Assembly: GCF_902784195.1 (NCBI RefSeq)
Contig: NZ_CACZTX010000001.1
Span: 186,001-250,000 of the forward strand
Source of the DNA: an uncultured Methanobrevibacter sp.
GTDB taxonomy: Archaea > Methanobacteriota > Methanobacteria > Methanobacteriales > Methanobacteriaceae
Reading direction: 5' to 3'
DNA length: 64,000 bases
Shown here in pieces: positions 30,525 through 62,467 of the stretch. The position numbers and the translations under genes are program-made. The notes below the pieces were generated by a model. It was not told the DNA's origin, ran no database searches, and worked only from the letters and a program-made list of their open reading frames with translations. The first letter of the stretch is position 1; every line of letters starts with the position of its first letter.

Positions 30525-30725
30525 TTTTTTATATTTTTAAAATTTTTTCTTTTTTTAAATTATTTAATATTGTTTTAATTTAATATTTTTAACTATTTTT
30601 TTATTTTTTCGATATTTAATAAATATTATTAAAAAATAAGTATTTATAATCTTTTATATTAAAAATAAACTATAAATAATAAGAATTACATATTTTTATA
30701 CCAAAACGTAAACTCTTTAAGTCCA

Positions 30726-30734
30726 GGAGGTGAT
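30726..30734 (+). promoter_or_regulatory. Perfect Shine-Dalgarno before a 65-aa membrane peptide
   Basis: GGAGGTGAT is the full complement of the 16S rRNA 3' tail, three bases before the ATG at 30738. It is stronger than for most genes here and supports translation of a short ORF. Confidence 0.7.
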
Positions 30735-30737
30735 ATT

Positions 30738-30935
30738 ATGTATTTTTATAGTATTGCCATGAGTTGGAAAAAGAATTGTATCTTTAATGAAAACTCACAC
30801 TTGGTAAAACATATATTAAAAGGAGGGGCCATTATTTCTGCCCAATCTAAGATTTGGATGGCACTGGTTTTATATCTCATTTACTTGGGATTTATGACCT
30901 TTATCATCATAATGGTAATGGTTAAACTGTTATGA
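30738..30935 (+). CDS. 65-aa small membrane peptide
   Basis: A short ORF with a perfect ribosome-binding site and a TATA-like box (tATTTATAATC near 30638). The N-terminal half is polar and basic. Residues 40-64 form a hydrophobic helix (IWMALVLYLIYLGFMTFIII) ending MVMVKLL. No homologue comes to mind. The size, single C-terminal helix and the dense hairpin region immediately downstream are reminiscent of type I toxin loci, but the match is structural only. It could equally be a small membrane regulator. Confidence 0.5.
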   Translation: MYFYSIAMSWKKNCIFNENSHLVKHILKGGAIISAQSKIWMALVLYLIYLGFMTFIIIMVMVKLL

Positions 30936-30950
30936 TGCCATAATGTCTCC

Positions 30951-37552: not shown

Positions 37553-38221
37553 ATGAAATTATTGGAAAAGTTTAATATTGTACCTAATAACGAAGATTTA
37601 TATGTAATTGCATTTACTCATTCTTCATACAGTGCCAAACATGACTTGGATTATGATTATGAAAGACTTGAGTTTCTTGGAGATTCCGTTTTGAATATGC
37701 TCACTTCAGAATTCCTCCAGAATATGCATCCTAGTTTTAGTGAAGGGAAATTGACTAAGCTTCGAGCTAATTATGTCTGTCAGAACGCTTTGATTGTATA
37801 TTCCCATGAAAATAACTTGGATAAATGCATCAGATTGAACCTGGAAGACAATGCGCTCACTGACAATGAGGTAATTTCAATAACTGCCGACGTTTTTGAG
37901 TCTTTTTTAGGAGCCATTTATCTTGATCAAGGAATAGACAAGGCGAAGGAATTCCTGGAAAAAACAGTTTTCCCATATATTGAGAAAAAAACCATATTCT
38001 TCTATGATTACAAATCCACTATCAAGGAGTATGGAGATGCTGAAGGTGTAGAGGTTAGCTATGAATTGCTTGAAGAGCATGGTGCACCACATGACAAGAC
38101 ATTCGTAATGAGGATCTTGATTGATGGCGTTGATTACGGTCATGGTGTGGGTAAAAGCAAAAAAGATGCAGAGCAATTGGCTGCATGTAAAGCTATTGAT
38201 AAGCTAAAAATAGAAAAATAA
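37553..38221 (+). CDS. rnc: Ribonuclease III
   Basis: A 222-aa double-strand-specific endoribonuclease. The catalytic domain has ERLEFLGDSVLNML (Glu40 and Asp44 region) and the second acidic pair in ADVFESFLGAIYLDQG. A C-terminal double-stranded-RNA-binding domain covers about 150-220 (YKSTIKEYGDAEGVEVSYELL...GVGKSKKDAEQLAACKAIDKL). All elements of a bacterial-type class I enzyme are intact. RNase III is rare in archaea, so this was probably acquired from bacteria. The window's structured RNAs and possible antisense pairs would be natural substrates. Confidence 0.93.
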   Translation: MKLLEKFNIVPNNEDLYVIAFTHSSYSAKHDLDYDYERLEFLGDSVLNMLTSEFLQNMHPSFSEGKLTKLRANYVCQNALIVYSHENNLDKCIRLNLEDNALTDNEVISITADVFESFLGAIYLDQGIDKAKEFLEKTVFPYIEKKTIFFYDYKSTIKEYGDAEGVEVSYELLEEHGAPHDKTFVMRILIDGVDYGHGVGKSKKDAEQLAACKAIDKLKIEK

Positions 38222-50870: not shown

Positions 50871-52160
50871 ATGAGAAGGAAAATAAAGACTCTATTTATG
50901 ACAGTGGGAACAGGAGTTAATCCAAATTCAGATGAGGAGAGCTATCAAAGATTGGCTAAGGTATTATACAATTCAATTAACAAGATCTCTCCAGACTATA
51001 TAGTGTTCTTTGCCTCAGAAATATCAATGAATACAATCGATTATGTTAAGGAACTCTTTGAGGCTGATGATGATGTATTCATTGAAGGTGAAGACTATGA
51101 AATTGCTATTTTAAATGATATAGACAGTTTCAATGACTGCTTTGAAGCATTTGAAAGAATGGTATGGAAATTCAACATCTTATCCGAAGACAAGCATGAA
51201 ATTATCATGGATTACACTTCCGGAACCAAAACCATGTCCGCTGCAATGGCTTGCTGCGGAATGTTCTATTCAGTGGACCTTATCAGTGTTACTGGAGACA
51301 GGAAGAATGGAACAGTATCCCTTGGTACAGAAACAATAAAGTATCAAAACCTCTATAAGGTCTATGACAAGTTTTCACTAATGAGAGTCAGGAATTACTT
51401 CAATGCAAACAGATTTTACACTGCAAGTGAAATATTGGAAAAAATAGTTGATGAAAGCATTCACACAGAGGACCTTATGAATCTTTCCAATGCATATTAT
51501 GCATGGGACAATATGGACTTTGATGTCGCTTACGATTTTCTCACTAAAGTTGACCTGAATCTCTTAGAGCTTAATGAAATCAAGAATGATATCAAGATTA
51601 ACCTTAAGGCATTAGGCACTATAGTAAGGTCTCAACACGAGAATCTCAAGAACTGCTATATTCTTGCAAGCTTGATTAATAATTCAATAAGAAGGGCAGA
51701 GGAATATAAGTATGATGATGCCATCGCTCGATTATATAGGGCATTTGAATTGATTGCACAAATTAGGCTTGCTTCTTATGGATTAACAAGTTCAGATATT
51801 GATGTTAATATACTTTTAGAGAAAAAAGTCAGCCAGGAATTCATTGATGCACTTGAAAAAACAAGGGATGAAGGCAAAATAAAAATAGGATTGATCAAGG
51901 ATTATGAGCTATTGGCAGAATTGGATGATGAATTGGGAAAGTACTTTGCAGAAAATAGGCATAGCATCAACAATATAACCATTAAAAGAAATAATTCAAT
52001 CTTGGCTCATGGACTTGAATCATTGGACAAGGAGGATTTCGATCAATTTGAAGAGCTTGTTGAAAACCTTGCCCGCAAGCTGGATAAGGATATGGACAAG
52101 TTCCTCAAAGAGACCAAATTCGCTAAATTTGATTTGAAAGTAAAGATGAATGAGATTTAG
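50871..52160 (+). CDS. CARF-HEPN protein, Cas02710/TIGR02710 family
   Basis: A 429-aa protein. The N-terminal CARF-like Rossmann domain opens LFMTVGTGVNPNSDEES and contains MDYTSGTKTMSAAMA (about 113-126), the signature I associate with the Cas02710 family. The C-terminal helical domain has R-X6-H in KRNNSILAHG (Arg373, His380), the HEPN ribonuclease motif. In type III CRISPR systems such proteins bind cyclic oligoadenylate and cleave RNA. No cas gene or CRISPR array lies in the window, so the ligand source is elsewhere or different. It is convergent with the TPR gene, six bases apart. Confidence 0.85.
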   Translation: MRRKIKTLFMTVGTGVNPNSDEESYQRLAKVLYNSINKISPDYIVFFASEISMNTIDYVKELFEADDDVFIEGEDYEIAILNDIDSFNDCFEAFERMVWKFNILSEDKHEIIMDYTSGTKTMSAAMACCGMFYSVDLISVTGDRKNGTVSLGTETIKYQNLYKVYDKFSLMRVRNYFNANRFYTASEILEKIVDESIHTEDLMNLSNAYYAWDNMDFDVAYDFLTKVDLNLLELNEIKNDIKINLKALGTIVRSQHENLKNCYILASLINNSIRRAEEYKYDDAIARLYRAFELIAQIRLASYGLTSSDIDVNILLEKKVSQEFIDALEKTRDEGKIKIGLIKDYELLAELDDELGKYFAENRHSINNITIKRNNSILAHGLESLDKEDFDQFEELVENLARKLDKDMDKFLKETKFAKFDLKVKMNEI

Positions 52161-52165
52161 GATTT

Positions 52166-52888
52166 TTATCCATCATCTTCATCTTCCCCTATTTCTTTTA
52201 GGAATTCTCTCCATTCCCTTTCCTCTTCCATCATGTATTCATTGTACTTTTCAAAGTCCTTTTCAGCAAGTTCTTTTTTTCCAACTCTTTTATAATGCTT
52301 AGCACGTTCCAGGTATATTGTATAATAATCCGGATGTTTTGATTGTAGTTTATTATAGATGTTTTCAGCTCTTTCTGCATATCCTGCCTTGGATAGCCTT
52401 TTGGCAATTTCCATAATGTATTCTTTATATGGTCCTTTACTGTAATCCCAATTCTGAAGCATAACATGTGTTCCAACCTTTATGGATTCAAATGCATTTT
52501 GATTGTCTCCCAAGTCGAAATAGATTGCTCCAAGGACATGGAATGCCTTGTCATATTGGTAGTTACTCAATAGCTTGTTTGCATATTCGATTGCCAGATA
52601 ATAGTTTCCTAAATAATAGGAAGTTTCGGTGATTAAAAATAAGCTTGTTTTGTCCATTTCATCGATTTTCAATGCTTCTTCCAGGTATTTATGAGCTAGT
52701 TCGAACTTTAGTATTTCAATATAGTTTTTAGCTATTGCAGTTTTCTTATCCGCTGTAGGATAGAGTCTGTCTGAGTTAATGAGGTATTTCAATGAGTCGT
52801 AAGGCCTGTTCAATTCATAGTATGACATCCCTATGACATAATTGAAATGGGTCCTTTTCAAAGATTCCCTTTTGTTTTTGCTCTTCAA
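52166..52888 (-). CDS. TPR-repeat protein, 3' part of a frame-disrupted gene
   Basis: Encodes tetratricopeptide repeats (THFNYVIGMSYYELNRPYDSLKYL, HYLEE-type helices, NAFESIKVG) and ends with an acidic tail. The first ten residues, read from a TTG, are out-of-frame sequence of the upstream part. True homology seems to begin at THFNY (about 52850). Joined to the upstream frame by a +1 shift it makes one TPR protein of about 430 aa. It may be a pseudogene, a sequencing error in short homopolymers, or programmed frameshifting. Confidence 0.7.
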   Translation of the reverse strand: MKSKNKRESLKRTHFNYVIGMSYYELNRPYDSLKYLINSDRLYPTADKKTAIAKNYIEILKFELAHKYLEEALKIDEMDKTSLFLITETSYYLGNYYLAIEYANKLLSNYQYDKAFHVLGAIYFDLGDNQNAFESIKVGTHVMLQNWDYSKGPYKEYIMEIAKRLSKAGYAERAENIYNKLQSKHPDYYTIYLERAKHYKRVGKKELAEKDFEKYNEYMMEEEREWREFLKEIGEDEDDG

Positions 52889-53468
52889 AGGACTCGATTA
52901 GCTCATCGTATTTGCCAAGAGAGTATAAGCGAATCAGTACAGCAGACTTCATTGATGGAACTACATTGGCAAGCTCATTGTAATAGAACATGGAACGTTC
53001 GCTGTCATCAATTTCATCATAGATTTCTGACATGTGAAACAATGCCAATGTGTTTTCAGGATTCAAGTCCAGCACTTTTTCTCCGTATTCGATTGCATTT
53101 TCGTATTCTTCAAGTTCCCTGTATACAATCAAATGATTCAAAAGGTATCTTTCATTATTCTTGGTTTCCTTTAAGATTTCCAATGCCTTAGCTATTTCAT
53201 TCATTTTTATATAGGTAAGCGCTATCATAAGAAAACCGCTGTCACTCACTCCGCCATTTTCCATACATTTGTTAAAAAGTTCGATTGATTTTTCATATTC
53301 CTTATTTTCGTAATAATCGCAAGCCAGGTTTTCCTGATATTCGATTAGATTAGGATTGATTTTCAGTATTTCCTTACAGACTTCTATGGATTTGTCTACA
53401 TTGAATTCACATTCCACAGAGTTGTAGGATGCTATTAGTTTGTCAAGTTTACTTGACATAAATATCAC
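52815..53468 (-). CDS. TPR-repeat protein, 5' part of a frame-disrupted gene
   Basis: 217 aa from ATG 53468 with five or so TPR units (for example EYQENLACDYYENKEYEKSI, YGEKVLDLNPENTLALFHMSEIYDE). After ESFEEQKQKGIFEK the frame runs into the non-TPR tail DPFQLCHRDVIL and stops, while the +1 frame continues the repeats. The disruption therefore lies near 52850-52866, within AAAAGG/GGACCC. TPR proteins act as scaffolds; convergence with the CARF gene may or may not be meaningful. Confidence 0.7.
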   Translation of the reverse strand: MIFMSSKLDKLIASYNSVECEFNVDKSIEVCKEILKINPNLIEYQENLACDYYENKEYEKSIELFNKCMENGGVSDSGFLMIALTYIKMNEIAKALEILKETKNNERYLLNHLIVYRELEEYENAIEYGEKVLDLNPENTLALFHMSEIYDEIDDSERSMFYYNELANVVPSMKSAVLIRLYSLGKYDELIESFEEQKQKGIFEKDPFQLCHRDVIL

Positions 53469-53620
53469 CGTATAAAAATTGATTTAACAAGTTTATGTAA
53501 TGGTAGTATATAAAGGTTTTGAATTAGTGTAAAATAAAAAAAAGAAAAAGAAGAGTTATTTTAATAGATAATTAACTATTTATGGTTCTTTTTCTTTTTT
53601 ATTTAATTTCTTTAGTTAAT

Positions 53621-53628
53621 CTTATATA
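53621..53628 (+). promoter_or_regulatory. TATA box for a possible antisense RNA
   Basis: CTTATATA on the plus strand. The expected start, about 25 bases on, is just before the hairpin at 53655, and the RNA would run antisense into the 30-aa ORF. Confidence 0.35.
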
Positions 53629-53654
53629 GTGGGAAAAATATAATTGATATTAGT

Positions 53655-53676
53655 GAAGTAGGGGTTTCCCTACTTC
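53655..53676. terminator. 9-bp hairpin overlapping the stop of the 30-aa ORF
   Basis: GAAGTAGGG (53655-53663) pairs with CCCTACTTC (53668-53676) around GTTT. It is followed by a T-rich stretch on the plus strand. It includes the minus-strand TAG stop (53670-53672). Confidence 0.6.
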
Positions 53677-53762
53677 TTTCTTGCTTTTATTATTGTCTGC
53701 ACTATTAATATAGTGCAAACAAAATAATATAGTGCAAGGGCAATATCAATTATTTCCCGCAT
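53670..53762 (-). CDS. 30-aa hydrophobic peptide, type I toxin-like
   Basis: A 31-codon ORF preceded by the perfect Shine-Dalgarno GGAGGTGAT (plus-strand 53766-53774). The peptide is MREIIDIALALYYF followed by VCTILIVQTIIKARKK: a charged start, one membrane helix (about 6-25) and a basic tail. That is the plan of Fst/TxpA/holin-like type I toxins of Firmicutes. A stable hairpin overlaps its stop, and a plus-strand TATA box is placed to make an antisense RNA across the 3' end. The coding call is good; the toxin role is inference. Confidence 0.6.
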   Translation of the reverse strand: MREIIDIALALYYFVCTILIVQTIIKARKK

Positions 53763-54074
53763 ATAATCACCTCCCTAGCAAGTATCTTCGCTTCAACTCT
53801 TTTTAAACTATTTTTAATTTAAATTTCATTATTAAAGCCACTTAACTATATTTTCTTATATTGATTTTTTAACTATTTAAAGATTTATTTGTTCTTTATT
53901 TTGGTTATAAATAGTTATATATTGTTAATTTTTTATTTTAAATAAAATATGGTCTTTATTTTATTATTAGATTATAATTAGGTTGAAAAATTATAATGAT
54001 TTTATAAAAAAATTTCAATAGATTTAAATTTTTAAAAAACATACTATTATTAAAAATCATATATCGGGGATAAC

Positions 54075-55031
54075 ATGTCTAATTTTAAATTTAAAATCAA
54101 TAATGTAGGTTCAATCAATCATGCGGATATGGACATAGGAAGAATCAATGTCATAGGTGGTAAGAACTGTACTGGAAAGTCTACCACAAGCAATTTGTTA
54201 TACTGTTTCTTAAGGGCCATTTCATCAGAGAATGACTCTACAATAAAGGAATTGCTTGATAGTGAATTCGATATAACAGGTCCTCAGGAAAACAAGGATT
54301 ACGCTTACATATACTGTGATGATGAGTTTTCATACACTATTGATTTCAAGAACTATAAGTTTGATAAAGAAGGAGAATTAGATATAAGTAAAGTCTTTTA
54401 CTTTGATTCATTCTCCTTATTTGACAATAAGTCTGGTGGAACCTACTTTTTAGAGCATGTTAAAAGCTTGGAAGCTGCTTTGGAAATAACTGAAGACATT
54501 AACGATGAAGAGCTGGAAGTTGAAAAGCTCATTAAGGAAATTCTCGGTGGAGAGATTAAGAAGGAAAACGGCGAATTGTTCTTCGTTAGGGAAAACGGAT
54601 TCAAATCACATATGAAAAACACATCTTCAGGAGTTAAGCAGGTAGCAATCATTCAAACACTTCTAAACAACAAGGAACTTGAACCTAATTCTTTCCTTAT
54701 CATGGATGAGCCTGAAGTCAATCTTCACCCAGAATGGCAGATCAAGTTTGCAAAGATTCTTGTTTTGCTTGTAAAGGAGCTTGACTTAAGCATTTACATC
54801 GCTTCACACAGTCCTTTCTTTATTGAAGCTATTGAATTATATTCCCAATACTATGACTTGATTGATGAGAGCTTCTTCTATCTGACTCAAAAAGCAGAAG
54901 GGTATCAGTATGACATTGTTTCTGTTGACTCCAATAATCTTGAAGCAATCTACAGAAACCTGGGACAACCATATGATATCCTTGATGAAATCAAGATGGA
55001 CTTGATGTTCAAGAAACTAGATGGTGATTAG
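54075..55031 (+). CDS. AAA ATPase (ABC/OLD-like, AAA15 type), partner of a nuclease
   Basis: A 318-aa ATPase with Walker A GGKNCTGKST (28-37), a degenerate signature TSSGVKQ (about 188), Walker B FLIMDEPEVNLHPEWQ (207-222) and switch His in IASHSP (242-247). This is the compact OLD/RecF-like class found in Septu, PARIS, Gabija and retron effectors. It lacks a TOPRIM domain, and the inter-motif region is short. GGGGATAAC precedes the ATG. The next gene starts one base after this stop, so translation is coupled. The inferred role is an ATP-dependent sensor or regulator of the nuclease. Confidence 0.8.
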   Translation: MSNFKFKINNVGSINHADMDIGRINVIGGKNCTGKSTTSNLLYCFLRAISSENDSTIKELLDSEFDITGPQENKDYAYIYCDDEFSYTIDFKNYKFDKEGELDISKVFYFDSFSLFDNKSGGTYFLEHVKSLEAALEITEDINDEELEVEKLIKEILGGEIKKENGELFFVRENGFKSHMKNTSSGVKQVAIIQTLLNNKELEPNSFLIMDEPEVNLHPEWQIKFAKILVLLVKELDLSIYIASHSPFFIEAIELYSQYYDLIDESFFYLTQKAEGYQYDIVSVDSNNLEAIYRNLGQPYDILDEIKMDLMFKKLDGD

Positions 55032-55032
55032 G

Positions 55033-55770
55033 ATGGATGATATAGAAAAGTTTGATAAGTTTTTGTCTTTTTATGGTAAGTATTATCAGACTGTAAGTGA
55101 GATATCAATGCCATGTCCTGTTCACGATAAGGATTGTCCTTCAATTAAACACAAGGAATGTATAAGCAAAAGCAAGGAACCTCTTGTAAGTAGTGATTTC
55201 ATGATGTATTCCTTTGACGATATTTGTAGGGATACTGAAACTATAGATATTTGTAACCTGCCATCTACCTGTGACGGTTTGTATTTGGATAAAAAGAGAA
55301 AAGTTCTATATTTCATAGAGTACAAGGGAGTGAAAATAGATAGGAATAGCAAAAGAGGAGAGCTTCAGGATATCTTGTATAATATGAATAAGGATTCACA
55401 ATGTTATGACAAGTATTATGAAAGATTGCAATGGGTTTATAACAGTTATGGTGATGAACTTGCATTTAAGTTAAGGTTGAAGCCATTTGAAACCCTTGAC
55501 TTGGCTTTACCTAATGTCTATAAGGATTATTGCATTAAAAATAAGATTTCTAAAGAAGATATGATAGATATCAATGAGTTTTTGCTTAATATAAAGAAGG
55601 TTTACATTGTTGTAGCTATTTCTGATAAGCATAATCCTGCTGCAGATAGGGCAGGGTCTTATAGGTTTATTCTTAGAAAACCTTTTGACAGATTGAAAGA
55701 GCTTGGATTATTTGAAATGGTTGAGATTATGGATCATAATGAGTTTAAGTTCTTTTTGGAGAGGATTTGA
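55033..55770 (+). CDS. Putative PD-(D/E)xK nuclease with Cys/His cluster
   Basis: 245 aa from ATG 55033; the GTGATTAGG before it is the ribosome-binding site and overlaps the end of the ATPase gene. DGLYLDKKRKVLYFIEYKG gives Asp81, Glu96 and Lys98, a D-X14-ExK arrangement on adjacent strands typical of restriction-like nucleases. The N-terminus has CPVHDKDCPSIKHKEC (28-43), a possible zinc site. The remainder is mixed alpha/beta without a known family name. With the upstream ATPase it forms a compact two-gene unit in the island. I do not recognise this pair as a named system. Confidence 0.65.
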   Translation: MDDIEKFDKFLSFYGKYYQTVSEISMPCPVHDKDCPSIKHKECISKSKEPLVSSDFMMYSFDDICRDTETIDICNLPSTCDGLYLDKKRKVLYFIEYKGVKIDRNSKRGELQDILYNMNKDSQCYDKYYERLQWVYNSYGDELAFKLRLKPFETLDLALPNVYKDYCIKNKISKEDMIDINEFLLNIKKVYIVVAISDKHNPAADRAGSYRFILRKPFDRLKELGLFEMVEIMDHNEFKFFLERI

Positions 55771-55805: not shown

Positions 55806-56804
55806 TTAAAATAAAGTTGTTTGCTTAGATTTTTTCGTAGATTTAGGTTTAGAACTTTTTTTAATATTGGGACTGGAATCCAAGATAGCTAATTCTTCAC
55901 AAAACTCTTCAATATCGCTAACTCTAGTTCCATTTCCATCATTTAATATCTTAACATTACCACTATAATCACCAATAGGATTATCATTAATATAATTTTC
56001 TTTTGATAATTCATTTGGAAGATAAACGTATAAATCTCTATGATAATCACTATCACTGTTTTTGTAGTTTATAGTGGCATTTACAGTATGCATTGTTCCG
56101 CTTTTTTCTCCACATTGGATAACAAAGTTGATATCTGAAAATGCAGCAACTATTTGATCCCTATCTACATAATAACCTTTGTTGGCTTTTATATTTGGTG
56201 CATATTCTGAAACCAAACAACCTCCATTTTCTATGATTTCTTCTGCTAATTTTTTATGTGAAGCTGGTGCAATATTATTGAATCCACTTGGCAATATTGC
56301 TATGGTGACTTTATTTTCCATAACAGTTGTTTCATGAGCTATCTTATCACAACCTAATGCAAGACCACTTATGATTGCTCTATCTGATTGGTCTAAAACT
56401 GCTTTAACAAGTTCTTTTTCAAAAATTTGGCTGTTTTCAGAAGGTTTTCTTGTTCCAATAACTGCCATATTAGGTTTGGATAATGCTTCCACATTTCCTT
56501 TCACATATAAGAATATTGGTTTTTTATTTCCCATATCATTTAATTTATCAGGGTATTCTTGATCGAATGGGGTTATTACAGTTATTTCAGGATTGTTTAT
56601 TACTTCTTCATATATAGGTTCAGTCTTTGCAATGGCATCTACTATTTTCTCTTTTGAGTATTTGGAAGTGATTACTTTATTGGAAATTAAATCGTTAAAA
56701 TTTTCTGAATTCTTTACTAATTCCAAATATTTATCATTGATTGTGCCTTTTCCTACACGTTTAATATTGCTTAAAAAAAGCAATTCCTTAAATTTATTCA
56801 TCAT
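55806..56804 (-). CDS. DprA/Smf-like DNA-processing protein
   Basis: About 332 aa from ATG 56804 (or the adjacent ATG 56801), with AAGGTGG upstream. The gene overlaps the end of the preceding PRTase gene by 11 bases, so translation is probably coupled. The Rossmann-like DprA core covers about 80-260: MAVIGTRKPSENS, ISGLALGCDKIAHETT, AILPSGFNNIAPASH, DRDQIVAAFSD and CGEKSGTMHTV. Bacterial DprA loads RecA on ssDNA during transformation. No competence gene is nearby, so a role sensing foreign ssDNA in a conflict system is more likely. The C-terminus is Lys/Ser-rich. Confidence 0.85.
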   Translation of the reverse strand: MMNKFKELLFLSNIKRVGKGTINDKYLELVKNSENFNDLISNKVITSKYSKEKIVDAIAKTEPIYEEVINNPEITVITPFDQEYPDKLNDMGNKKPIFLYVKGNVEALSKPNMAVIGTRKPSENSQIFEKELVKAVLDQSDRAIISGLALGCDKIAHETTVMENKVTIAILPSGFNNIAPASHKKLAEEIIENGGCLVSEYAPNIKANKGYYVDRDQIVAAFSDINFVIQCGEKSGTMHTVNATINYKNSDSDYHRDLYVYLPNELSKENYINDNPIGDYSGNVKILNDGNGTRVSDIEEFCEELAILDSSPNIKKSSKPKSTKKSKQTTLF

Positions 56805-58245
56805 TCCACCTTTCCACTTTATATGGTTCAACTTCAATTATGAGTCCATCTTTAGTGTAAATCAATTCATCATTGTCAACAGTTCTACCAATTGTTAGAG
56901 AAATAATGTCCTCATTTTTAAATCCATTGTCAATTAAAATGCTTCTACATGCATACATAATGTTTCCTGATGTTGTGATGTCATCTAAAAGTATATAACC
57001 CAATTTCAAATCGGATAATTCTTTATCTTCATTGAATATTATAGACTTAAAATGCTTATCCAATGACCTGCCTCCACCTTTAGATGAGGACTTGACACTT
57101 TTGCATCTGATTAATAGGTCACTATAATCAAGGATTTCAAAATCATATTCATATTCTCCATCTTCCTTTCCTTTTTTAATGGCAACTATGGATTTCTTTG
57201 TTTGTGGATCTTCATCTTTTGTTGAAGAAGGCACTGAAATAAGTGCTACGCCCTCTTTATCCATAAAATATGTTTTATAAATGTTTTTCACACCTTTAAA
57301 AAGGGCTTTTGTGAAACTAGGGATATATTTATTGTGATATTTGTATTTGATTAATTTTTCATCTATTTTAAAACATTCTTTCACATATTCACTTAATTCA
57401 ACATTTCTGTTTTTGTAATATTCACGATCATCATTTTTAATGTAATCATATAGGAAGTAAATATTTGAGTAAAGTGCATGGTTAATGTTCAATTCAGGTA
57501 CAGCAGGATAATCGAATTTTCTTTGAAATGCTTTTTCTATATCCTCTTCTGAAGTCTCATATAAGTTTCTCTTATGATAATTTGTCGGATTTTTTAATTT
57601 ATATTTTTTAATAATATTTTCAATATATTCCTCTTTGTCAATGGGATTATCATCATTTTTGATTAATTTTGGTTTTTCTTCTGCTTGTTTTGGTGCTGTT
57701 TTTGTTTTTTCAATTTTGTCTTCAGTAGTAGATTGTTTCTTTCTTTCTTCTTCTTTTCTTTTATTTTCTTCCTCTATTTGTCTTTTTCTTTCTTCTTCTT
57801 TTCTTTTATTTTCTCTTTCTAACCTTTCAATGTTTCTTTTTCTTTCTTCTTCTTTTCTTTTATTTTCTTCCTCTATTTGTCTTTTTCTTTCTTCTTCTCT
57901 TTTCTTTTGTTTTTCTTTATTTCTTTGAATTCTTTTTTGGCGCTGTTTTCTTTTATTTTCTCTTTCATCTTTCTTATTTAATTTAGGCCTTTCATCAATG
58001 CTTATTCTATTAATGGTATTTAAGAATTTTTCCTTATTTCTGGAAAGGTTATTTTTATCATATTCCTTTAAAATTAGATCTTTAACTTGTTCATTGGAAT
58101 ATTTTTCAAAAATAAAATCTACCGCTTCATTTTTCCCTAATTCTTGGTCAATGCCCATATCATCTAGAAGCTCAATAAAAATACGCTTAGGCATTTTATT
58201 TTTCAATTCACTCTTTAATTTTAATTTAAGATTCTTATCTTCCAT
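56794..58245 (-). CDS. Coiled-coil protein with C-terminal phosphoribosyltransferase domain (ComF-like)
   Basis: A 483-aa protein. Residues 1-85 are a small helical domain. About 85-185 is an extremely charged coiled coil with a repeated EEERKRQIEEENKRK unit. After a linker, about 240-483 is a type I phosphoribosyltransferase; its PRPP-binding loop is LGYILLDDITTSGN (415-428). AAGGGGG precedes the ATG. ComF, a relative, is a competence protein in bacteria. Here the PRTase is fused to a coiled coil and coupled to a DprA-like gene. It has its own promoter (58260-58296). Confidence 0.82.
   Translation of the reverse strand: MEDKNLKLKLKSELKNKMPKRIFIELLDDMGIDQELGKNEAVDFIFEKYSNEQVKDLILKEYDKNNLSRNKEKFLNTINRISIDERPKLNKKDERENKRKQRQKRIQRNKEKQKKREEERKRQIEEENKRKEEERKRNIERLERENKRKEEERKRQIEEENKRKEEERKKQSTTEDKIEKTKTAPKQAEEKPKLIKNDDNPIDKEEYIENIIKKYKLKNPTNYHKRNLYETSEEDIEKAFQRKFDYPAVPELNINHALYSNIYFLYDYIKNDDREYYKNRNVELSEYVKECFKIDEKLIKYKYHNKYIPSFTKALFKGVKNIYKTYFMDKEGVALISVPSSTKDEDPQTKKSIVAIKKGKEDGEYEYDFEILDYSDLLIRCKSVKSSSKGGGRSLDKHFKSIIFNEDKELSDLKLGYILLDDITTSGNIMYACRSILIDNGFKNEDIISLTIGRTVDNDELIYTKDGLIIEVEPYKVERWNDE
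57735..57910. repeat. Internal coding repeat of the coiled-coil region
   Basis: Two nearly identical blocks of about 70 bases (encoding RQIEEENKRKEEERKR-type sequence) flank a shorter variant. Antisense reading gives misleading Ser/Phe-rich hydrophobic ORFs. Confidence 0.75.
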
Positions 58246-58318: not shown

Positions 58319-60538
58319 TCACGCTTGTTTTTTAATATACATTATATAATTGCATTTATTTTGTATGCACATTCCCATTTTCTTATCCTTATTGAATTTG
58401 ATGCATTTAGTAGGATGATCATAACATTTGAATGCGTTTTCAAAATTATAGACTGCATCTTTGAACTTTTCGATTTCCCCTATGCTTAAATCGTAATTCG
58501 CTTCGTTCTTATGGGATAATAGATTACCCATATAAGCAGTGCTGTCCAATTCCTCAAAGACATTATCATAATAATCTTTAAAATTAGCATTGCCTTTGAA
58601 CAACTCATTTTTAAATAATTTAAGTTGTTTGTAATAATCATCTACAGTATAATGCTTTTTCAGAGGTAATCTAATTGCATTTGTTAAGCATATATCATAT
58701 AATACATCTTCTAAATAGCGTCTTATTGAATTTCCTGCAGCAAAGCTGTCACCATTATCAATATAGTTGGCAATGATTTGCTTTGTGGTCATGCTTTCTG
58801 AAAGTTTTGGCCCTTCTTTCTTATCCCATTTCTTGATTTCCACGAATTTGAAATCATTTCCTTTCTTATGTGCACTTGTAATTCTGGCTAACTGTTCAAA
58901 CCATAATTTATTATGGGTTGTTATAACAAATGTGTAATCTCCAAACTCTTCAAATAATAATCTAATGACTTGTTCCTTATGTTCCAAATCAACTGTTGAG
59001 ATAATATCATCTAACATCATGAATTGATATTTATTGAATCTTTTAACAAAAGCCAGGAATATACATAATCCCATAGTGTCAATATGCCCTTCACTAGAGA
59101 ATGTTCTAGGGTCAGAATAATCTTTGTCAAATTGAACTCCCAATTTTAGACTATTGGAACTTTTTACATTTATTCCAGGATTTTTTATGTCATCATTGCC
59201 ATGTATGAACCTATAGAATGTATCAAAGTATTCACTGATTTCCTCTAAAATGTGTTTTATGGATTCCTTTTTCATATCAGTGAAAGTCTTATAGCTTATT
59301 TCTGCAATTTTAGCTTCTTTTTTTATCTTTTCAAGTTCTCCTTCAATCTTTTCTCTATCAATTAGCTTAAAGATAACTTCCAATGCATCATCTAATTCCT
59401 CATTGCTAGTGCTTTGCTTTTCTTTAATCAATTCAATTTTCACTTTAATGTTTGGAAGCATGTTCTTATCCATTTCACTAATCTTTTTATTGAAGTTTGA
59501 AAAATCCTCCAAATCCTTAATGAAATCTCTTAAATCGAATTCTTTCAAGTTGTAATCAAGATCTTTCAATTCATTGATTAATGATTTAACTTCGTATTTC
59601 CAGTTGTTTAATTCATTATTCCTTGCTTCTATATCCATTATCCTATTTTTTATATCTGCCATTAACTTTTCATTTTCTATTTTGCCATGGCAAATTGGAC
59701 ATTCATCCACTTTCTCGCTTTGAATGTATTCTCCGGATTTTTTCAATAAGGACAATAATGAATTTGCAGATTTGAATTCATTCAATGAGATGTTTTCATA
59801 GTCATCCAATAATTTCATGTATTTATCGTTTATATTAGAGATGTCTTCATCTATCCCCTCAATAAGTTTATTGTTTTCTGAGAATTTCTTTACAAAATCC
59901 TTTAGAAAAGTGTCTTTTGTGATGGTATCAAGATTATTCTTTTCCAAAACAAAATTAATTTCATCATAAATGTCATCTATGTCACAGTTGTAGATGCTTC
60001 TGATTTCATTTGTGTTATTTTCTAGTTCCGCCTTTTTATTTTTCACTTGCTTGATTAGGCTGTTATTTACCCATCTGAGTTTCTCTTCAATTTTATCATA
60101 TTTTTCATATGATATGAGATTTGTAATTGTATCGTAACGTTTTCTAGGAGTTGATTCAATGAATTTCAATAGTTTTTTTCTATTTAAGATGAATGAACCG
60201 TTTTTGAAATCATCCTTCAAGTCCTTAAGTTCCTTATCATATTTTAAACCATTTTTGAAAGATCTTTCGATTGTATAATCTCCAATATGTGCTCTGACAA
60301 GCACATCACTTGCCTTATCCCCCATATGAATAAGGGATTTGTCGTGATCCACATCACCCATCCCACTAAGGCTTCCGACCTTTCCTGTAAATAGGTATTC
60401 GATAGCATTTACAAATGAACTTTTCCCAGTACCGTTAGCCCCACAGAACACTAAAGACTTTTTGTCAAAGTTCAAAGTATATTGTTTGATGCCTCTAAAG
60501 GAGCGTATTTCTATATCATCAAATTGCAGTTTAGTCAT
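58319..60538 (-). CDS. SMC/Rad50-like ATPase with zinc hook
   Basis: A 739-aa protein. Walker A CGANGTGKSS (32-41), a long coiled coil interrupted by a zinc hook CPICHG (280-285), signature FSSEGHIDTMG (480-490), Walker B FMMLDD (506-511) and His switch TTHN (540-543). The coiled coils are far shorter than in Rad50 (about 100-120 residues each), as in defense-related AAA23 proteins. The last 190 residues are an extra helical domain with RRYLEDVLYDIC and MGNLLSHKNE, possibly HEPN-like. AGGTG before the ATG overlaps the end of the 46-aa gene. Probably DNA-binding and ATP-driven. Confidence 0.85.
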   Translation of the reverse strand: MTKLQFDDIEIRSFRGIKQYTLNFDKKSLVFCGANGTGKSSFVNAIEYLFTGKVGSLSGMGDVDHDKSLIHMGDKASDVLVRAHIGDYTIERSFKNGLKYDKELKDLKDDFKNGSFILNRKKLLKFIESTPRKRYDTITNLISYEKYDKIEEKLRWVNNSLIKQVKNKKAELENNTNEIRSIYNCDIDDIYDEINFVLEKNNLDTITKDTFLKDFVKKFSENNKLIEGIDEDISNINDKYMKLLDDYENISLNEFKSANSLLSLLKKSGEYIQSEKVDECPICHGKIENEKLMADIKNRIMDIEARNNELNNWKYEVKSLINELKDLDYNLKEFDLRDFIKDLEDFSNFNKKISEMDKNMLPNIKVKIELIKEKQSTSNEELDDALEVIFKLIDREKIEGELEKIKKEAKIAEISYKTFTDMKKESIKHILEEISEYFDTFYRFIHGNDDIKNPGINVKSSNSLKLGVQFDKDYSDPRTFSSEGHIDTMGLCIFLAFVKRFNKYQFMMLDDIISTVDLEHKEQVIRLLFEEFGDYTFVITTHNKLWFEQLARITSAHKKGNDFKFVEIKKWDKKEGPKLSESMTTKQIIANYIDNGDSFAAGNSIRRYLEDVLYDICLTNAIRLPLKKHYTVDDYYKQLKLFKNELFKGNANFKDYYDNVFEELDSTAYMGNLLSHKNEANYDLSIGEIEKFKDAVYNFENAFKCYDHPTKCIKFNKDKKMGMCIQNKCNYIMYIKKQA

Positions 60539-60547
60539 ATCAGCACC

Positions 60548-60688
60548 TTAATAGTATTTTTTGATAATTCCTTCAATATTCTCTTTTTTAGAGCGCCTAA
60601 TTTCTTTTTTCAGTTCATTTATAAAGTCTTGATTGTCTATTTCTTTACTAAGTTCATTAAAGTAATTGTCTAAAAATTCATCTTGCAT
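60548..60688 (-). CDS. 46-aa acidic/helical small protein
   Basis: A 47-codon ORF filling the gap between the DUF262 gene (21 bases upstream) and the SMC-like gene (9 bases downstream). It reads MQDEFLDNYFNELSKEIDNQ followed by DFINELKKEIRRSKKENIEGIIKKYY. Charged, amphipathic, probably helical. The tight spacing and the use of its end by the next ribosome-binding site support a real gene. Perhaps a small accessory subunit of the SMC-like ATPase; no homologue recognised. Confidence 0.6.
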   Translation of the reverse strand: MQDEFLDNYFNELSKEIDNQDFINELKKEIRRSKKENIEGIIKKYY

Positions 60689-60709
60689 AGAATCAACTCT
60701 TTAAGGAAT

Positions 60710-62467
60710 TTATATTTTTTCAAAATATTCTCTGATACTTTTTGCCATCAATTTCCTACGAGCTTCTAAAAAGTCAAAATAATCCATATTCCAGAAATCA
60801 TGAGGTAAATCGTATTTTTCAGTGTAATTATTTAATAAATCCTCTTTATCTGCATCACCTAAAGAATCAACCATCAGTGTCCAATATTCTTCTGGAGATT
60901 TATCGCTGATTTTAATATTGTCTTTATATTCAATATAAATCATATTCGCTTGTTGATTATAATCTCTTTTATCTTTAATTCCATTCTTAATTAAATAATT
61001 TTTAGGGAAGATATGATGAACATCTACAGATTTCTTAGGTGCTTTAGTTAATGGATTTAAATGATCTCTTAGAATTGCTTTTGAAAAAAGCATATTCTCT
61101 CCAGAATATATTTTAGAAACTGTATATACTTTTCCTGCATAGTTGTTTATTGATGAAATTAATCTTTCAGGCAAAGTGATATTCCAATAGTCTTCAGTTA
61201 ATTCGCTATTCATTATCCTATTTAATATTCCAATAAAATCAGCATCTTCACTTCTGAAATTAGATAAATCTTGTTCATAAATGGATTCAGGTGAAGAAGT
61301 GTATCTTTGAGTTAATTGAGAGAATATAAACCATTTTTGAATAATTCTATTTAATTCATTATAGGGCACTTTGAATTTTTCTTTACCAATTAAATATAAT
61401 CCATAGCATGCATAAAATGCAAATTTAGAACTGATTAGCAAATCATAGTTAATAAATCCGATTGATTCAATTATATTTACAAAATCATGCCAATTTTTAA
61501 TGTTTAATGTTTGCTCTTGGGCTTTTTTAAATATTTCAAAGTTTTTGTCACGTTCTTCCTTACTGGTTGTCTTATTTTCTAAGTTTCTACCTTTTAAGAT
61601 TAAATAAGCATATCTTAAACGTCCTCTTAAAAATGATAAAGCAACAGTTGGCCTTAATAGATGTTCAGATTCTGGTTGAGCTTTAATTGTATTATATGGA
61701 GAAGCATCACCTTCACTAGGTGTTTTACACCCTTTTACAAATTCCTCAATTGCTTCTCTTCCTTTATCCCAGTATACAGACATTAAAGTTAAAATAAAAT
61801 CGGATTGGTTTAATATTTTTCCTTTACTGTTTATTCTTACAAATATTTCAGAAACTTCTTCAGGATCCAAATCAGATGATAATTCGAGTACAGAAATGGA
61901 ATATTTCTGTATATTTTTCATTCTTTCGAGTCTTCCACCAATTTTTTCTTCATTGAATTCCATATCTGGTTTCTTTTCATTAATTTTATTGCGGTAGGCA
62001 CTGACAAGTGTAAATAAACCAGTATTGAATATTTCAGTTATATCATCAATCCATTCTGGATCTTTTTGAATACTTGAGTTTAATACTTGAATTTCTTCAG
62101 TGATAGGATTGAAGGCTATGTGTGGATTTCTCCATTGGTAATTTTTGTTTAACACTGATTTTCCTGTAAAAACAGCAAAAAGAGAAGTTAATCTTTGTTG
62201 GCCATCGATTACAAGTCTATTTGGGGTTGTAACCTTATCTTTACCTATTGGCTTAGGTTTATAACCATCACCATCTCCAATTTTCCAAAGGATGATTAAA
62301 CCTGTTGGCATGCCTTTGTATAATGAATCAATTAAGTCTCTTATTTGTGTATCTTTCCATACAAATGGTCTTTGTAAGTCTGGAAGTGCGATAATTCCAG
62401 AATCCACGTCTGCTACTAAATTACCGAGTTCATAAGTTGTATTGTTAAAAACTACTCCATTATTCAT
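60710..62467 (-). CDS. DUF262 / HNH endonuclease (GmrSD-like)
   Basis: A 585-aa protein. The N-terminal DUF262 (ParB-like NTPase/nuclease) domain has ALPDLQRPFVWKD and the hallmark LVIDGQQRLTSL (86-97); FVRINSKGKILNQSDFIL completes it. The C-terminal HNH of the DUF1524 type is VDVHHIFPKNYLI (His484, His485). GmrSD enzymes of this plan cut modified phage DNA using NTP. AAGGGGA precedes the ATG. It is the first gene of the minus-strand cluster and richer in AT codons than most of the window. Single-chain fusion form. Confidence 0.88.
   Translation of the reverse strand: MNNGVVFNNTTYELGNLVADVDSGIIALPDLQRPFVWKDTQIRDLIDSLYKGMPTGLIILWKIGDGDGYKPKPIGKDKVTTPNRLVIDGQQRLTSLFAVFTGKSVLNKNYQWRNPHIAFNPITEEIQVLNSSIQKDPEWIDDITEIFNTGLFTLVSAYRNKINEKKPDMEFNEEKIGGRLERMKNIQKYSISVLELSSDLDPEEVSEIFVRINSKGKILNQSDFILTLMSVYWDKGREAIEEFVKGCKTPSEGDASPYNTIKAQPESEHLLRPTVALSFLRGRLRYAYLILKGRNLENKTTSKEERDKNFEIFKKAQEQTLNIKNWHDFVNIIESIGFINYDLLISSKFAFYACYGLYLIGKEKFKVPYNELNRIIQKWFIFSQLTQRYTSSPESIYEQDLSNFRSEDADFIGILNRIMNSELTEDYWNITLPERLISSINNYAGKVYTVSKIYSGENMLFSKAILRDHLNPLTKAPKKSVDVHHIFPKNYLIKNGIKDKRDYNQQANMIYIEYKDNIKISDKSPEEYWTLMVDSLGDADKEDLLNNYTEKYDLPHDFWNMDYFDFLEARRKLMAKSIREYFEKI

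Follow-up and report, generated by a model that had tools for sequence, protein, structure and literature searches.

A probable type I toxin-like membrane-peptide mRNA, with a putative antitoxin, in a defence island of Methanobrevibacter

The window analysed here, the whole stretch of 64,000 nucleotides from an uncultured Methanobrevibacter sp., carries a small gene on the minus strand between a TPR gene and a divergent ATPase gene, in the following neighbourhood:

50871..52160, plus strand: Csm6/Csx1 CARF-HEPN RNase, a defence neighbour
52166-53468, minus strand: TPR gene, two overlapping frames in the window, a single 437-aa ORF in genome G002
54075..55031, plus strand: divergent AAA_15 ATPase, closest to PADLOC HEC-02A / PD-T4-4_A
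55021..55770, plus strand: partner gene of the ATPase, with a weak HEC-02B match (E 0.021)
55806-58245, minus strand: ShosA (DprA-like) and ShosT-like pair, near the ATPase
58319-62467, minus strand: LmuB-like AAA_23 ATPase and GmrSD_N protein, prolonging the island

The Csm6/Csx1 RNase, the HEC-02-like ATPase and its partner, the ShosA/ShosT pair and the LmuB-like and GmrSD genes together indicate a defence island. The match of the ATPase to HEC-02A (2e-31) covers part of the profile. Since the TPR gene is read in two frames here and as one ORF in G002, it is probably frameshifted or mis-assembled in the window. The small gene itself comprises, in its own orientation:

53874..53882, minus strand: TATA box of the sense promoter, CTTTAAATA, with AAAT/AAAC BRE-like bases upstream and a predicted transcription start near 53850
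53766-53774, minus strand: Shine-Dalgarno GGAGGTGAT, 3 nt upstream of the ATG
53670-53762, minus strand: ORF of a 30-aa peptide, MREIIDIALALYYFVCTILIVQTIIKARKK, with a single TM helix and a basic tail
53533..53602, minus strand: A-rich/T-rich inverted repeat, a probable terminator separating the peptide gene from the TPR gene

A sequence-only reading had described a 30-codon minus-strand ORF with a perfect 9-base Shine-Dalgarno, a TM helix with a basic tail and a 9-bp hairpin at the stop codon, and all of these are present: the Shine-Dalgarno matches at nine of nine bases, the hydrophobic segment has a KD value of 2.36 across 17 residues, the tail reads KARKK, and the hairpin encloses the TAG. 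A Shine-Dalgarno of at least six bases preceded 32 of 1609 intergenic small-ORF starts in a census of 730 kb of the host genome's 2.05 Mb, and the peptide gene is the best folded of these 32 (z -7.1). Scored with a promoter profile derived from 364 upstream regions of the host genome, the sense promoter reaches 6.7 in the window and 9.5-10.4 at the aligned place in G002, G006 and G007; in G005 the aligned site falls outside the five best-scoring ones. For comparison, the promoter of the TPR gene scores 18.8. The A-rich/T-rich repeat, probably a bidirectional terminator, recurs elsewhere in the genome (C1, C6). Weak DNA matches within the same genome fell mostly in terminator-like A/T-rich repeats of this kind and were set aside.

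The most striking property of the gene, overlooked in the sequence-only reading, is the fold of its mRNA. For the minus-strand RNA spanning 53790 to 53610, the predicted folding energy is -60 kcal/mol, compared with -28.7 for shuffled sequences (z -8.9); the fold has three helices, and in it the 3' UTR pairs back across codons 2-9 and the start codon. A 12-bp inverted repeat, ATAATTGATATT (53640-53651) and AATATCAATTAT (53742-53753), joins the 5' part of the ORF to the 3' UTR. The elements are, from 5' to 3':

53742..53758, minus strand: 5' arm of P1, a long-distance helix (codons 2-7 onward), seen in fold and covariation
53680..53738, minus strand: P2, a hairpin within the ORF
53655..53676, minus strand: P3, the 9-bp hairpin GAAGTAGGG/CCCTACTTC that holds the TAG stop, with both sides changed in eight of its nine pairs
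53631..53651, minus strand: 3' arm of P1, in the 3' UTR, covarying with the 5' arm
53621..53635, minus strand: last 3' arm, CCCACTATATAA, which pairs with the start codon region (with the SD region in type B orthologues, described below)

In the predicted fold the last arm, written as CCCACUAUAUAA, folds back across the start codon. As modelled, the structure is a 5'-3' long-distance interaction, more than a terminator hairpin. Fold z-scores in four orthologues were -8.9, -6.2, -5.7 and -3.8. Searching Rfam with positions 53400-54100 of the window, with two orthologue loci (L024, L040) and with a locus of a second peptide family (L108, see below) gave nothing above gathering score; a match to MIR8041 at 53676-53742 (score 22, gathering score 80) fell far short and was rejected.

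The sequence-only reading had suggested looking for homologues in methanogens, and the peptide is indeed conserved there: six Methanobrevibacter genomes carry the gene at one position, adjoining the AAA ATPase or the TPR gene. Two types occur. Type A comprises the window copy and that of G006, whose 30-aa ORF lies at the same place and is 50% identical. Type B, found at the same spot in G002 (an M. olleyae SIG14 contig), G005, G007 and G008 (where the copy is interrupted by the contig end), encodes a 28-aa peptide, MGEAISVITCISLVISAIFAILNYMQDK, and shares the Shine-Dalgarno, P1 to P3 and the 3' arm with type A. The peptides of the two types are only 14% identical, so function may have shifted between them. 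Across five orthologues the single-TM peptides measure 28-30 aa, with a hydrophobic segment in all five (KD 1.85-2.65), and the Shine-Dalgarno is kept in every orthologue that includes its stretch. The G005 copy may be decaying, since its ORF starts with GTG, its P1 contains a mismatch and an arginine lies within the TM segment. In G007 the TPR gene is missing from the site and the element is retained. The RNA model R2, derived solely from three type B copies, recovered both type A copies, with E-values of 6.6e-13 (window) and 7.8e-9. A search of 152 genomes of the phylum with the RNA models, under Infernal's stricter filters, gave no further copies; matches of model R1 in G013 and G064, and of R2 in G040, resembled chance when inspected by eye, and the remaining short protein matches (E 0.01-10) were likewise taken as chance. 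The conserved 3' arm had no match in a viral-contig scan.

Both the peptide and the RNA bear marks of selection. The sequences indicate purifying selection on the peptide, with dN/dS of about 0.15-0.4 (0.36/0.87 for window and G006, 0.20/1.35 for G002 and G007) and with few synonymous sites, which RNA structure constrains as well. Within each type the ORF is free of indels, whereas the flanks contain them. At the RNA level, 94.4% of alignment cells are paired and both sides have changed in 25 of 47 pairs, figures that gain from the alignment having been fitted to the model; none of 500 shuffles reached any of five measures, slid versions were 32-49% paired, and independent folds of most copies give the same three helices. 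The copies come from only six genomes of one genus and the sequences are therefore related. The P1 arms score on average 22.2 with their own partner and 11.3 with that of the other type. The excess of G-U over A-C cells (19 versus 7) favours the minus-strand RNA as the functional strand. These data also bear on whether the ORF is incidental, the locus being in truth a palindromic mobile element or a structured non-coding RNA. The very stable fold and the inverted repeats would fit such an element, but the synonymous excess, the conserved Shine-Dalgarno and the exact ORF length within each type do not, nor does the fact that the element is single-copy and syntenic and found nowhere else in the 152 genomes; we consider this explanation very improbable.

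The question arises as to what the last 3' arm does. Assuming a transcription start about 25 nt downstream of the conserved TATA, opening the region from Shine-Dalgarno to AUG in the full-length RNA is predicted to cost 5.9 (window), 6.6 (G006), 5.3 (G002) and 3.8 (G005) kcal/mol, against 1.2, 1.7, 0.5 and 2.3 kcal/mol, respectively, once the last arm is removed. In G007, the fifth orthologue, the predicted opening upon arm removal was not seen. Four of the five orthologues are thus predicted to have their start site closed by the last arm. Short nascent forms are likewise predicted to be occluded.

Such a layout recalls the mRNAs of certain type I toxins. In aapA and hok mRNAs, the start site is locked by 5'-3' pairing (PMC6733600, PMC11228461). 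As in aapA/IsoA of Helicobacter pylori (PMC6733600), the locus encodes a membrane peptide of some 30 codons, the stable full-length mRNA would have its start closed by a 5'-3' long-distance interaction, nascent forms are predicted to be occluded, and activation by 3' trimming may be expected. It differs in that the archaeal gene has no detected sequence relation to aapA, its antisense RNA is only putative, and its pairing arm invades the coding sequence itself. With hok/sok it shares a short membrane-toxin mRNA with a 5'-3' fold-back lock (PMC6733600, PMC11228461); unlike hok, the gene has no mok-like upstream ORF. Searches of Pfam and NCBIfam, including the curated type I toxin families (Hok, Fst, TisB, Ibs and others), gave no match up to an E-value of 1, hence there is no detected homology to Hok. 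The mRNA would work in the way that the type I toxin mRNAs of hok and aapA do, and the peptide stands outside every named toxin family.

In the txpA/ratA and fst systems, the antitoxin is a convergent antisense RNA. The sequence-only reading had likened the locus to these, and the short TM peptide, the basic tail and the stop-proximal hairpin do agree; the comparison is nevertheless less apt than that with hok and aapA, in which the start is held shut by the 3' end, and the corresponding antisense promoter is weak at the archaeal locus. Two features bear on it:

53622-53628, plus strand: TATA-like TTATATA, candidate antisense promoter, profile score 4.5
37553-38221, plus strand: RNase III gene, Pfam Ribonucleas_3_3 (6e-31) plus dsrm

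Both the plus-strand TATA box and the RNase III gene near 37.5 kb had been pointed out from the sequence, correctly. An antisense RNA from this TATA is possible; it had been expected to cover the 3' end of the peptide gene, but a run-on transcript would span the whole ORF and the Shine-Dalgarno. The locus could then be a type I pair in which a plus-strand RNA starting near 53651 covers ORF and Shine-Dalgarno and RNase III destroys the duplex, a scheme that we find doubtful. The TATA is conserved in all six genomes, its predicted start lies at the boundary between the P1 arm and P3, and an RNase III gene is at hand. However, the host-trained profile gives 4.5, 4.4, 1.7, 5.3, 5.3 and 4.4 across the six copies, close to background (a 5-nt placement reaches 4.4 by chance in about 3% of cases), and the TATA bases overlap the start-pairing arm, which could by itself account for their conservation. 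The sequences thus point to a conserved but weak antisense promoter, a poor match to the host profile. Of the type I toxin-antitoxin system proposed at first, the toxin-like mRNA has good support, whereas the opposing promoter (1.7-5.3) is weak evidence for an antitoxin.

Two further hydrophobic-peptide families in the same genome, unrelated to the first (family 1), show a comparable arrangement:

C1:278005-278890 (L108 8005-8330 and 8570-8890), plus strand, outside the window: family 2, tandem 567-bp repeats
30721-30936 of the window, plus strand, and a second place at C1:51580 (L099 11640-11860): family 3, MSIQSKIW-type hydrophobic peptide

Family 2 peptides are 25-27 aa long and also occur in G001, G003 and G012 (L136, L137, L138). 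Their leader and 3' UTR arms are complementary, with sequences that differ among all five copies, and pair better with their own partner (mean score 28.4) than with a swapped one (13.7). A sense-strand promoter-like site (scores 5.2-10.8) is so spaced, by our reading, that transcription would begin near the 3' arm in four of five copies; this predicts a short downstream RNA with its own hairpin terminator. This small RNA would begin at the pairing arm and co-evolve with the toxin leader, giving a private pair per copy. A same-strand promoter of this sort was not consistently found across family 1 copies. Family 3, matched 28 times across 18 genomes from two genera, with some copies in tandem, has an overlapping upstream ORF, as in mok/hok; in the 26 copies, out of these 28, that were readable, Shine-Dalgarno or start bases have a 6-12 bp complement directly past the stop, a raw count taken without a null. 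At the sequence level, tail-to-start pairing recurs across unrelated peptide families. We tentatively propose, at somewhat less than even confidence, that Methanobrevibacter holds at least three unrelated TM-peptide families that resemble type I toxin-antitoxin systems, their mRNAs being closed by pairing of the tail with the leader or the start, the antitoxin of family 2 being a same-strand downstream small RNA in private pairs.

This recurrence helps in weighing whether the family 1 peptide is instead a non-toxic small membrane protein that, for instance, assists or regulates the ATPase, with an mRNA structure that senses temperature, ribosomes or RNase and thereby controls translation. Its conservation, and the fact that the gene always adjoins the ATPase or the TPR gene, would agree with this, but the ATPase of G015 (72% identity) comes without the element, and the hok-like layout is found in two unrelated hydrophobic-peptide families as well; we think such a role unlikely. 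We lean slightly towards a single-TM peptide gene that behaves as a type I toxin, with a self-locked mRNA whose start site opens upon 3' trimming. In the closed form (P1, P2, P3 and the last arm over the start codon or Shine-Dalgarno), the full-length mRNA would be stable and little translated. If its 3' end were trimmed, it would lose the last arm and expose the start site, and a membrane-active peptide would be released, much as for hok and aapA. RNA processing, toxicity and the trigger are steps that we infer; sequence comparison and modelling give the conserved peptide, the covarying fold and a start site predicted to close and open. A type I toxin-like mRNA, with its conserved TM peptide, covarying structure, start-occluding 3' end and defence-island site, appears well supported, and the best reading of the locus is such an mRNA in archaea with a putative antitoxin.

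Type I systems were known from three bacterial phyla only, cyanobacteria being the first addition from outside (2025, PMC12390103). The view that they are essentially undocumented in archaea agrees with our finding none described in the open-access literature searched, a limited set. In haloarchaea, the type VIII toxin CreT acts as an RNA and is kept in check by a crRNA-like guide together with Cascade (PMC8501985, PMC12737573). CreTA is likewise an archaeal RNA-controlled toxin tied to CRISPR and defence; unlike it, the Methanobrevibacter locus encodes a conserved peptide. If our reading holds, methanogens of gut and rumen carry conserved, covarying membrane-peptide mRNAs that lock themselves, which would extend the design to a second domain, and place it beside a Csm6 RNase in an archaeal defence island, with loci at which it can be tested. 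Such genes would be easily overlooked, their peptides being shorter than 34 aa, absent from Pfam and NCBIfam, and visible chiefly through RNA covariation.

Two minor observations may be added. In the window copy of family 3, ATT stands in place of the inner ATG, and the two frames are joined into one. Elsewhere in the host genome, near 10540 of locus L114 on the plus strand (G000:C1:400540), lies a further Shine-Dalgarno-led hydrophobic ORF of 24 aa, MVVTLRQALLVILFIIQMILIFIE, without a marked fold.
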